Shown: one piece after another, positions 1-7,912 of the stretch
How the letters are laid out: each line of letters begins with the position of its first letter
Numbering within the stretch: the stretch's first letter is position 1
Assembly: GCA_030427835.1 (NCBI GenBank)
Contig: JAUICN010000020.1
Coordinates: forward strand, 1 to 32,428
From: Polyangia bacterium
GTDB taxonomy: Bacteria > Myxococcota_A > Polyangia > Polyangiales > JAUICN01
Length of the DNA stretch: 32,428 nucleotides
Direction of reading: 5' to 3'
Translations under genes and position numbers: made by a program
Notes under the pieces: generated by a model
Told to the model about the DNA's origin: nothing
Seen by the model: the letters and a program-made list of their open reading frames with translations, nothing else
Databases searched by the model: none

Positions 1-688
1 CACGGAGCTCTTGGGTCTTGGGTCGGCTTCCTAGGGGAGTACGCAAGACCCGACGCATGCCAAGCACAGAGCCGGTGAGTGGTTCACTTCGCTCGTCCAT
101 GCGTTGACGTACGGCAGTGACTACGTTCTGCAGCGGCATGTGCCTGAGCATGGGGGGCACGGTGAGGGAGAGAGTGGGGGGAGTCACGCCTGCACGGCGA
201 CGAAAGTAGACCTTAGGTCGGGGGATACGTGTGGCGATGTCGGTGCCGAGTTGTTCGGGCAGGGTGAGAAGGCCTTCCCACTGGGAGGGGCGTTTTACGA
301 GGCGTGCGGTGACGGGGTTGAGGGCGATGTAGGCGAGCTTGTCGAGTACGGCCTCGGGAGACTCCAGGGTGACCATGTTGTAGGAGCCTGGGGCAAAGAG
401 ACCACCCTCGACGCCCCGGAACTCCCCTATGGCCCTGGACATTTCCCGATTGACCCAGTGCATGAAGCGGGGGAGCTGGCCGAGCATGTCGGTGAGGAGG
501 ATATGGTAGTGGTTGCTCATGAAGACGATGGCGTGGAATTCGACTCCAAACATGGCGGCGCCCCGGGCGAGCACATATTTGAGGATATCGTTGACCATGG
601 GGCTCGGGATGAGGAAGAAGCGGCGTTGTAGGCACCGTCGGGTGACCATGACGGTTTTCCCGGGGAGGATTTGACGGGGCTGACTCAT
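1..688 (-). CDS. REP-associated tyrosine transposase (RAYT, IS200-like Y1), 3' end beyond the window
   Basis: The reading frame opens with ATG at 686-688, just after a strong AAGGGGG ribosome binding site, and runs without a stop through base 1, giving 229 codons of a gene that continues off the left edge. Around residues 52-65 lies the HUH signature (FHAIVFMSNHYHILL, histidines 60 and 62). Around residues 119-130 comes YIALNPVTARLV, which fits the catalytic-tyrosine region of the Y1 family (Tyr120). In this family the metal-bound HUH histidines and the tyrosine nick single-stranded DNA at hairpins, and RAYTs are thought to have spread REP palindromes. It appears as a single gene without insertion-sequence ends, as usual for RAYTs, and the DNA directly upstream is full of short palindromes. 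Family assignment is firm; present activity is not shown. Confidence 0.85.
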   Translation of the reverse strand, partial: MSQPRQILPGKTVMVTRRCLQRRFFLIPSPMVNDILKYVLARGAAMFGVEFHAIVFMSNHYHILLTDMLGQLPRFMHWVNREMSRAIGEFRGVEGGLFAPGSYNMVTLESPEAVLDKLAYIALNPVTARLVKRPSQWEGLLTLPEQLGTDIATRIPRPKVYFRRRAGVTPPTLSLTVPPMLRHMPLQNVVTAVRQRMDERSEPLTGSVLGMRRVLRTPLGSRPKTQELR

Positions 689-729
689 GCCCCCTTATCG
701 GACAGACACTGTCGCCAGTTGCGTCAATT

Positions 730-856
730 CGAACGTCAGCGTCGTTTTATGACGCGTCTGGCCCATCGGAAGGCCTGAAAACGACCCAGGTTCGTTTCAT
801 CAGAGGTCTCTTTTGCGCAAGAAGTGGATGGTTTTTGCGCGTACCTGGGTTGTTTT
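730..856. repeat. REP/BIME-like cluster of alternating inverted repeats
   Basis: Three related units lie in alternating orientation between the RAYT and der. The unit at 730-748 reads CGAAC, a variable core, then GTCGTTTT. The unit at 778-794 reads AAAACGACCCAGGTTCG, the inverse. The unit at 840-856 reads CGTACCTGGGTTGTTTT, forward again. The 778-794 and 840-856 arms match at 15 of 17 positions, and one of the two differences is a G-U wobble as RNA. An inner stem (GCGCAA 815-820 with TTGCGC 835-840) and small hairpins (GACAG/CTGTC at 701-713, GCGTC/GACGC at 739-755) add structure. A copy identical to the reverse complement of 778-794 lies at 7896-7912. Position beside a RAYT makes REP-type repeats the natural reading; it could also act as a 3' structure for der. 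Confidence 0.6.
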
Positions 857-3372: not shown

Positions 3373-4539
3373 ATGGGAACTTCCAAGTGGGCGCTACTCT
3401 GCGCAGGGTTTTGGGTGACAACCGCCTGTGGGAGCACCAAACCACCTTCAAAACCTGCGGAAACTACCCCTCCGCCCGCGCCCAAGGCGAGTACCGCGTC
3501 TCCAGCCCAGTCTGCCCAAGAGCAGCAAGAACCCCCCCCTGCCCAACCACCGGCACCGTCGCAAGCCCCTGCCACACCCCAGGCCAACCCCCCTTTCGAT
3601 TGGGCCCGTTGGGCCCGTTCGAGCGATCTACCCATACCCACGCCACCTGTTGCAGTGCAGTGTGAAGGGCTTGATACGTCTGCCCGCCCCGTGTCCTGGC
3701 GGCCCAACAATGGGTTTGCCGTGCGCGATGGTGAGGAGCTCATGCTCGATCTAGCTGCACCAAAACATCAAGAGCCCAAGGCCTGGGTTCTTCTTCTGCA
3801 CGGCGGGGGCTGGCGCGCAGGTGAACGCGCCCACCTCCATCGCGAGGCGGTGACCCTAGCGAGCATGGGCTACGCCGCGGCCACGGCAGACTATCGGCTT
3901 GCGCCCGACCACCCCTACCCCGCGGCCCTAGAAGACACCCACTGTGCCACGCTGCTGATGCGAGATTTGCGATTCAGCATCGACCACAACATGTCCAGCC
4001 CACTGGTGCTGATTGGGTTTTCTGCGGGAGCTCACCTTGCAGCGATGGTAGCTGCGACGGACTACAGGGGGAACGTCCTTTGTGGACGCCGTTCGGGGCC
4101 AGACTCCCCAGATACTGGTACCCACGTACCGTCCGGTTGGGAGGTATCGGGCTGGGTAGGCTACTACGGCCCCTACGTTCTTTCCCCCATCACCCGTTGG
4201 CACCGTGCCAATCAACGCATGATTTCCAAGTTCCTTGGCGGCACCACGGCCGACCTTGAATCCCTTGAAGGCCTGGCCCAGCAAGCCACCCCCACGTTCC
4301 ACGTGCGTACCGAGCCCACTGTTGGCAGGGCGCTTCTTGTCCATGGAAGCAAGGACGTCTCCGTTCCACCCGCCGAAAGCCACGCCATGGCAAAAGCCAT
4401 CCGAGAAAAGGGTGGCATCGCCAACGTGCTGGAGCTCCCCGAACTCCCCCACGGGTTTCGCCTCTTTTCACCTCTTCCGGGGGCTTCCGTGGGCGCCTGT
4501 GAAACCCTCAAATTCATTCAATCCCTCGCCACCCCATAG
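3373..4539 (+). CDS. Alpha/beta-hydrolase lipoprotein, HSL/BD-FAE-like esterase
   Basis: A short hydrophobic signal ends in TTAC (Cys19), an acceptable but not ideal lipobox. A Pro/Ala/Thr-rich linker follows to about residue 90. The hydrolase domain (about 105-388) has the oxyanion motif HGGGW (143-147), the Y-R-L-A-P element of hormone-sensitive-lipase-like enzymes (174-178), the nucleophile elbow GFSAG (Ser217), a likely acid Asp328 in HGSKD, and His360 in LPHGF. These together support a carboxylester hydrolase active outside the cytoplasm, anchored to a membrane by lipid. The substrate cannot be told from sequence. No strong Shine-Dalgarno precedes the ATG. The small membrane-protein gene follows after 22 bases, so the two are probably co-transcribed. 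Confidence 0.85.
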   Translation: MGTSKWALLCAGFWVTTACGSTKPPSKPAETTPPPAPKASTASPAQSAQEQQEPPPAQPPAPSQAPATPQANPPFDWARWARSSDLPIPTPPVAVQCEGLDTSARPVSWRPNNGFAVRDGEELMLDLAAPKHQEPKAWVLLLHGGGWRAGERAHLHREAVTLASMGYAAATADYRLAPDHPYPAALEDTHCATLLMRDLRFSIDHNMSSPLVLIGFSAGAHLAAMVAATDYRGNVLCGRRSGPDSPDTGTHVPSGWEVSGWVGYYGPYVLSPITRWHRANQRMISKFLGGTTADLESLEGLAQQATPTFHVRTEPTVGRALLVHGSKDVSVPPAESHAMAKAIREKGGIANVLELPELPHGFRLFSPLPGASVGACETLKFIQSLATP

Positions 4540-5147: not shown

Positions 5148-6309
5148 TTGCCAGGATGGAATGGTTGGGTTCCAGGTCGGCTAGTTCTAGGGCATTGGGC
5201 GCCACCAACCCCCGGAGGTCAGGCAAACTACCGATGTGAGACGTGGCGAGCATGCGATCCGCCGGGGCTTGCAATGCTTCCAGAGAAAACGCGAGTCGTG
5301 AGCGCAGCTTCGGCAGGTACAACGCGATCTGTTCAGCGTACACAGATTCAGAGAGGTGTGTGGTACCGGGGATCAGGTCAATGTTTCCAAGGCGGTGAGC
5401 CTCCGTCAGCACGACGTGAGCGTGCCTCTGTGCGAGCGCGGTGAGCTGGCCTTCCGCTGCGGCCCGCGTGTAGGCCTCTGACAGAGTGGCCAGCGTAGCA
5501 TCCATGGCCCTTGAAAAACGAGCCACCTCCTCAGGCATCACATGGGGGCCGTGCACGAGAAGGTAGGCATCTGTCGGGAATCCGAACGGGGAGCTTTCGG
5601 TGCTGTAGTGTCGAACCGGGTACCCCTGGGCAGGCAACACCACGGCGCCAGTGGTGCGAAACATCCAAACCCCATCGCAGGATCCATCCAGCAGGGAGGT
5701 GTGGCTAAACCCGGTGGACACGATGTTTCCAAAGGTGACGTTTTCAAGAGATGCCCAAACGTTGAGCACATCCCTTGAAATATGACCCAGGTTCATTCCC
5801 ATGGTTTTTCCGTTCAAGTCCTGGATCGAGCGAACAGGGGATTGTTCAGTGACTCCGAAGCCCACGAAGTTGGCATTGGAATAGAGCAAACCAAACGCCG
5901 TTACAGAGGTCCTCTGGTTTGCCGCTCGGCTTACCAACATCTCGGGTCCTCCCAATACCGCAATGTCGGCACGTCCGGATTCCACATCGTCCAATGGGTT
6001 TCCCTCTCCGTAGAGCATTTCCACCGACAGTTGTTCCTGGGCAAAGTCTGCCAAATACAATGGAAGTGAAGCTCCGTCTGCATCCGATATGGGCGACCGC
6101 ACGACAAGTGTTCCGTACCCCTTAGAGAAACCGTCCGAAGGTGCTCCCGTTTCCGCGGTGCAGCCTGCCACTCCCAGCAGTGCCGCTCCCAGCAGTGCCG
6201 CTCCCAGCAGTGCCACCCCCAACAGTGCCACCCCCAACAGTACGATTCCCAGTGTTCCTGTGGTGACAGCGATACCCATTCTAGCTGCTTTCAAATTGTG
6301 CCGTTCCAT
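5125..6309 (-). CDS. NMT1/SsuA-like substrate-binding lipoprotein (orphan)
   Basis: The mature part resembles periplasmic binding proteins of the NMT1/SsuA/THI5 and TAXI type. It has an early beta strand followed by a region like PLYLADFA, then GRADIAVLGGPE (a ligand-lobe strand) and IQDLNGKTMGMNLG, the equivalent of the common D-L-K-G-K-x-I-G motif. The signal peptide ends in LGVAGC, a good lipobox. Its hydrophobic core is built from five near-identical LLGxA units encoded by a 15-bp tandem repeat. ATG 6309 is chosen because GAGGAG (6315-6320) sits 5 bases before it; the ATG at 6312 is only 2 bases away, and an in-frame start at 6372 has no such site. No permease or ATPase gene is adjacent, so ligand and role are unknown. 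Confidence 0.75.
   Translation of the reverse strand: MERHNLKAARMGIAVTTGTLGIVLLGVALLGVALLGAALLGAALLGVAGCTAETGAPSDGFSKGYGTLVVRSPISDADGASLPLYLADFAQEQLSVEMLYGEGNPLDDVESGRADIAVLGGPEMLVSRAANQRTSVTAFGLLYSNANFVGFGVTEQSPVRSIQDLNGKTMGMNLGHISRDVLNVWASLENVTFGNIVSTGFSHTSLLDGSCDGVWMFRTTGAVVLPAQGYPVRHYSTESSPFGFPTDAYLLVHGPHVMPEEVARFSRAMDATLATLSEAYTRAAAEGQLTALAQRHAHVVLTEAHRLGNIDLIPGTTHLSESVYAEQIALYLPKLRSRLAFSLEALQAPADRMLATSHIGSLPDLRGLVAPNALELADLEPNHSILANVGTAKP
6170..6259. repeat. 15-bp in-frame tandem repeat in a signal peptide
   Basis: Units begin at 6170, 6185, 6200, 6215 and 6230, with a degenerate sixth at 6245. The second and third are identical (GCTCCCAGCAGTGCC); the others differ by a few bases. Each unit encodes five residues (Leu-Leu-Gly-x-Ala) on the minus strand, so a gain or loss of units keeps the frame and changes only the length of the signal-peptide core. 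Confidence 0.9.
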
Positions 6310-7764: not shown

Positions 7765-7895
7765 CAAAAAAACTCAACGATTTCCAAAGCGCTGGGGCCA
7801 GGCCCTATTTGCCCGCCTCACCGGCGTCACACCCCAGTCCTTTCCCCTTTCCAAGCTGGAAGATAGAAATAGATTTGGAATCATTAGAGAATTTT

Positions 7896-7912
7896 CGAAC
7901 CTGGGTCGTTTT
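7896..7912 (+). repeat. Dispersed copy of the REP-like 17-mer
   Basis: CGAACCTGGGTCGTTTT here is identical to the reverse complement of 778-794, more than 7 kb away, and lies in non-coding DNA. It sits 13 bases beyond the end of the minus-strand lipase gene. The copy at 840-856 lies similarly, just past the end of the minus-strand der gene, in the same orientation. Confidence 0.65.

Follow-up and report, generated by a model that had tools for sequence, protein, structure and literature searches.

A dispersed 17-bp repeat beside RAYT genes of a myxobacterial genome appears to mark the ends of mobile elements

In the usual description, RAYTs are transposases that have been domesticated and no longer move, and the repeats associated with them are passengers. 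The window analyzed here, a stretch of 32,428 nucleotides that is the complete contig C6 of a draft 3.3-Mb myxobacterial genome (3,319,294 bases in 30 contigs), starts inside a RAYT gene that is itself repeated. An earlier note on this DNA had reported three related units in alternating orientation beside the gene, in the pattern of a BIME, and an identical copy of one of them at a distant intergenic site.

The identification of the gene as a RAYT was upheld. Its first 229 codons occupy positions 2 to 688 on the minus strand, it continues on contig C13, and it encodes a RAYT/TIRYT-type Y1 HUH transposase carrying the HUH (NHYH) and Y...NP motifs. Scored while cut by the contig edge (229 residues), the protein matched NCBIfam NF047646 (REP_Tyr_transpos) with 47.8 bits (E 1.3e-12), short of the curated cut-off of 80, and two paralogs that are complete in the core scored 44.0 and 34.4. 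Pfam gave no match to the window protein at 0.001 and only Y1_Tnp at E 0.08-0.17 for two paralogs. Residues N59, H60, H62, N124 and P125 were invariant in 22 homologues and Y61 and Y120 nearly so. The AlphaFold model (pLDDT 89.6) found its best solved match in the RAYT-REP complex 4er8 (Foldseek E 8e-7), the next structural matches being IS200/IS605 transposases. On sequence grounds the protein can be placed in class 2 of the TnpA_Y1 classification, with 2.1 and 2.3 as the apparently nearest subclasses by motif and length (PMC6006769). Seven RAYT genes could be measured in this genome, the other six being 44-60% identical to that of the window, and further copies are cut by contig ends.

All three units beside the gene were recovered. 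The inner one, a degenerate 19-bp unit CGAACGTCAGCGTCGTTTT at 730-748 (plus strand), points outward and lies 41 bp from the RAYT ATG; the non-coding block that joins it to the ATG, ACGCAACTGG...TGTCTGnCCGATA..GG (689-729, minus strand), is kept in RAYT paralogs and has a related layout in other Myxococcales. The next, at 778-794 (minus strand), points inward and forms an inverted pair with the outermost unit, which lies at 840-856 (plus strand) and carries two mismatches. The 17-mer at 778-794 is identical to the one at 7896-7912 (plus strand), the distant copy that had been announced. With up to three mismatches allowed, the window contained four matches against 0.12 expected, a number reached by none of 100 shuffles; the fourth, at 5779-5795 inside a gene, is probably due to chance.

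The repeat is not limited to these sites. At the same threshold the whole draft genome held 74 matches, against 14 for a reversed pattern used as control, and the exact 17-mer occurred 15 times. Enrichment between genes, for which the earlier note had proposed a test, was pronounced: 38 of 40 matches with at most two mismatches lay outside genes, against an expectation of 19% (binomial p about 1e-25), as did all 24 with at most one mismatch, as counted against genes called by a home-made ORF finder in 381 kb of DNA fetched around the matches, 81% of it coding. The unit, 13-17 bp long, can be written CGAACCTGGGTCG-TTTT and its variants differ between RAYT clades. Across units of the form NNAACCTGGGTNN, positions 2 and 12 were associated (G with C or T, C with G; Fisher p 2e-4), which hints at a short hairpin, although C-C combinations were also common. 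The family is thus dispersed and intergenic; it belongs to the RAYT and is apparently undescribed.

Two further suggestions of the earlier note fared less well. Both window copies do lie just past stop codons, at 14-23 bp, but the idea of a role in mRNA 3' ends is weak and unsupported genome-wide: 16 of the 17-mer sites fall in tandem, 6 in convergent and 5 in divergent regions, compared with 54, 14 and 36 for the remaining regions 100 bp or longer, so that they are only mildly short of divergent regions. Nor did the BIME pattern stand. We found no GTAG foot in the unit and no stable fold for a single unit (z -0.1), which led us to reject its identity as a GTAG REP. The segment 725-860, which contains the inverted pair, does fold at -26 kcal/mol (z -3.8), and the palindromic variant CGACCCTGGGTCGTTTT forms a 5-bp hairpin followed by T4. 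Genome-wide, copies are mostly single or directly repeated rather than inverted doublets, and they stand at the ends of RAYT elements or at the right ends of composite repeats of about 200 bp.

Contigs C5 and C9 begin identical to the window from position 733 to 855-859 and are unrelated to it directly past the unit at 840-856. On the 3' side of the window's RAYT, C13 and C19 are identical up to CGAACCTGGGTCGAGTC and unrelated past it; these copies of the window's own element within its genome are known only from contig ends of a draft assembly. A second RAYT clade gives the same picture, the identity between the ends of C15 and C18 beginning just before CGGGTCACGAAG. An outward-pointing unit lies 41-44 bp before the ATG of the RAYTs of C6, C23 (at 23882), C27, C29 and C30, and a second outward unit about 1,084-1,101 bp past the ATG in the same five, the spacing for C6 being derived from 730-748 in the window together with C13:540-556. 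The position of the unit is therefore kept across diverged paralogs. Near-identity up to a unit and unrelated DNA beyond it suggest that the RAYT was moved whole, and outward units at fixed distances on both sides give the layout of a transposon whose inverted ends are separated by about 1.1-1.3 kb.

Comparison with relatives, the nearest of those searched belonging to the same order, pointed the same way. A 233-kb contig of Myxococcales bacterium SKS1.bin67 carries two RAYT copies 4.36 kb apart that are 99% identical over about 1.26-1.28 kb, an identity that starts exactly at GAGGCCCCGACCCAGAG, and the element has a perfect 17-bp inverted repeat, GAGGCCCCGACCCAGAG/CTCTGGGTCGGGGCCTC, at its ends, with more copies of this end beside it. 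In the relative G034, RAYT families 91-96% identical are set in unrelated flanks. Element ends in both genomes have TGGGTCG in common with those of the genome studied here. The 17-mer itself was found 0-3 times (at most two mismatches) in each of 37 relatives at order level, whether or not they have RAYT homologues, a comparison that the earlier note had called for; other genomes thus have other versions of the unit, and several relatives do carry other units beside their RAYTs. The outcomes that the earlier note had named as refuting it did not occur. As judged from these sequences, RAYT elements with defined ends appear to have moved whole, and recently, in more than one clade and in at least three Myxococcota genomes. 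Separately, we observed that the RAYT family is strongly expanded in several genomes of this order, with 49 profile matches in G034, 25 in G001 and 18 in G009, and that copies of TTTCTCTGGGTCGGGGCCTC, the end repeat of the RAYT element, are clustered in a tandem-like manner in the right flank of the SKS1.bin67 locus (about 4116-4220).

Of the strong copies of the 17-mer that lie away from any RAYT, most are preceded by TTGAAATCATTGATTAATTTT. At about 15 loci, TTGAAATCATTGATTAATTTT and the 17-mer make up the right-hand half of a composite repeat some 200 bp long, whose plan is a first module AGCGGKCGAMTTTT..AATGATTTCAA, a second module of type A or B, a unit, a module TTGAAATCATT..AATTTT and finally the 17-mer. 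Homology extends over about 200 bp in a fixed module order at unrelated loci, and the composite is an undescribed repeat. A sequence model of the left half recovered 17 loci here but had no match in 27 order-level relatives, and a model of the right end recovered about 20 strong loci in this genome. The 17-mer at 7896-7912 forms a right end of this kind (27 bits), with module 4, TTGGAATCATTAGAGAATTTT, immediately before it at 7875-7895 (plus strand); a left half is not recognisable there. Covariation was seen between the outer arms of the left half: 94% of cells were paired versus 75% after shuffling, 13 cells had both partners changed, and the score was 0.47, whereas displacing the arms by 1-3 columns gave no more than 0.13, all measured on the a-b' arms (columns 6-11 with 88-93) in a small alignment of 12 related sequences. 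A single RNA fold for the composites was rejected, RNAalifold having found short stems only, as was a known RNA, Rfam having returned only tRNAs across 16 composite-bearing loci and the window. PLSDB contained no plasmid homologue of the one composite tested. No unit could be recognised at the left end of the composites, so that their mobilisation by the RAYT is only putative.

Taken together, these observations lead us to regard positions 1 to about 857 of the window as, probably, the 5' half of a roughly 1.3-kb mobile element that consists of a RAYT/TIRYT gene with outward-pointing units as its ends, the unit at 840-856 being the end on the 5' side; the units would be recognised and cut, and RAYT elements, composites and solitary ends would have spread in this way. 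Single-strand cutting is the established chemistry of Y1 transposases (PMC6006769). By analogy, the transposase would recognise the unit, use its tyrosine to cut single-stranded DNA next to the unit and transfer the segment between two units whatever its content (both latter steps modelled on Y1 chemistry, PMC6006769). Autonomous RAYT elements, short non-autonomous composites ended by units and solitary ends could thereby have come to lie between genes, and the copy at 7896-7912 would be the end of one such composite.

A classical REPtron, in which an immobile, domesticated RAYT spreads the REP/BIME hairpins next to it, would account for the fold and motifs of the protein, for the alternating pair 778-794/840-856 with the folding of its surroundings and for the dispersal of the repeat between genes. 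It is nevertheless unlikely, and already largely refuted, since the GTAG foot is missing, lone units are unfolded and the RAYT is present in many copies, near-identical ones being bounded by units. The 17-mer might instead be native to the composites, with some other system, such as the DUF1016_N-SNase nucleases described below, spreading them and the RAYT elements having borrowed the 17-mer or inserted beside it. Most strong non-RAYT copies are indeed right ends of composites, and composites of types A and B extend over the beginnings of two nuclease genes; this explanation must still be judged rather improbable, because the unit stands at set distances to either side of the gene in five RAYT copies and related genomes have units beside their RAYTs but no composites. 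That the repeats are not mobile DNA at all, but sites where a regulator binds as to operators, or weak terminators favoured by selection at the ends of genes, seems very improbable: the hairpin and T4 of CGACCCTGGGTCGTTTT and the location of both window copies just past stop codons would fit, but homology over about 200 bp in fixed module order at unrelated loci would not, and neighbouring genes are diverse, with no consistent position at gene ends.

The nucleases came to notice through the composites that adjoin them. Three DUF1016_N-SNase fusion paralogs were found, at C18:319601-320452 (plus strand), C27:245418-246269 (minus strand) and C18:216016-216852 (minus strand), the first sharing 60% and 55% identity with the other two; in PADLOC, proteins of the DUF1016 type appear as defence candidate PDC-S02. 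The start codons of the former two lie inside composites, a type A composite in one case and a type B composite in the other, so that composite sequence supplies roughly the first 14 codons of each gene. Just upstream of the third is a doublet of ATTATCTGYGCGGYRGAA, which belongs to a dispersed palindromic repeat, type C (ATTATCTGCGCGGCAGAA), present at about 45 intergenic sites; a closely similar search pattern gave 62 matches with at most three mismatches against 0 for the control. Eleven of the 45 sites are double, usually with a spacing of about 36 bp (for instance C15:211892 and 211928, and C22:172151 and 172187). Types C and B share one plan: an arm, a short centre, the inverted arm, 7 bases and the arm again. 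Of the type C sites, 42 of 45 lie in tandem or divergent regions, with neighbours that, judged by eye, include XerC/D recombinases, PolA, Ffh and DnaK. A regulon was discarded as an explanation for either composites or type C, the neighbouring genes being too diverse. We raise, as a tentative possibility, a second gene-repeat pairing unrelated to the RAYT, in which the three nucleases would each have their own palindromic repeat type (A, B or C), much as a RAYT has its REPs. The divergence of the repeat arms would have kept pace with that of the nuclease paralogs, and the first two types would travel in elements ended by the RAYT unit. In a relative that has a DUF1016_N-SNase gene, no dispersed copies of the sequence upstream of it were found in a sample of less than 2% of that genome, which contains runs of N.

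The mobility of RAYT elements may itself be a new observation. Since RAYT units with defined ends were apparently moved whole, the transition from insertion sequence to REP system is opened to experiment here, both as to which end is cut and as to how a transposon end turns into a genome-wide repeat. Should the nuclease pairing be true, dispersed intergenic repeat families would also have arisen beside a nuclease unrelated to RAYTs.

Among known systems, the closest is the TIRYT/TIRtron of Di Nocera et al. 2013 (PMC3733652), which has inverted repeats instead of GTAG hairpins and TIR copies elsewhere in the genome and is probably subclass 2.1 of the TnpA_Y1 classification of Quentin et al. 2018 (PMC6006769). 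Our system, read from its sequence, would be of this kind, its RAYT-like enzyme falling in class 2 and its end repeats being inverted. Shared are a RAYT-like HUH transposase with a C-terminal extension and inverted repeats on both sides of the gene; particular to the present genome are the many paralogs, the near-identical copies ending at the repeats and the capping of composites of about 200 bp by the repeat. The TIRtron motif GGGGWSAS compares loosely with CGGGTCAC in one clade (7/8), others having TGGGTCG. RAYT/TnpA_REP systems with REP, REPIN or BIME sequences resemble ours in fold, HUH and Y...NP motifs, intergenic dispersal and a cognate repeat beside the gene, and differ in their GTAG foot, stable hairpin and RAYT that is not multi-copy. 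Subclass 2.3 of TnpA_Y1, from Chromatiales and Alteromonadales, is alike in NHYH, Y..LNP, a length of about 300 residues and several copies per genome; compared thus by motif, length and copy number, it belongs to another taxon and no flanking repeat has been found for it. The composites recall MITEs, being short, non-coding and intergenic, with inverted arms and an end shared with an autonomous element, although they share only one end with the RAYT element. IS200/IS605 elements have Y...Q, subterminal hairpins and no TIR, whereas the elements described here combine Y...NP with inverted units at their ends.
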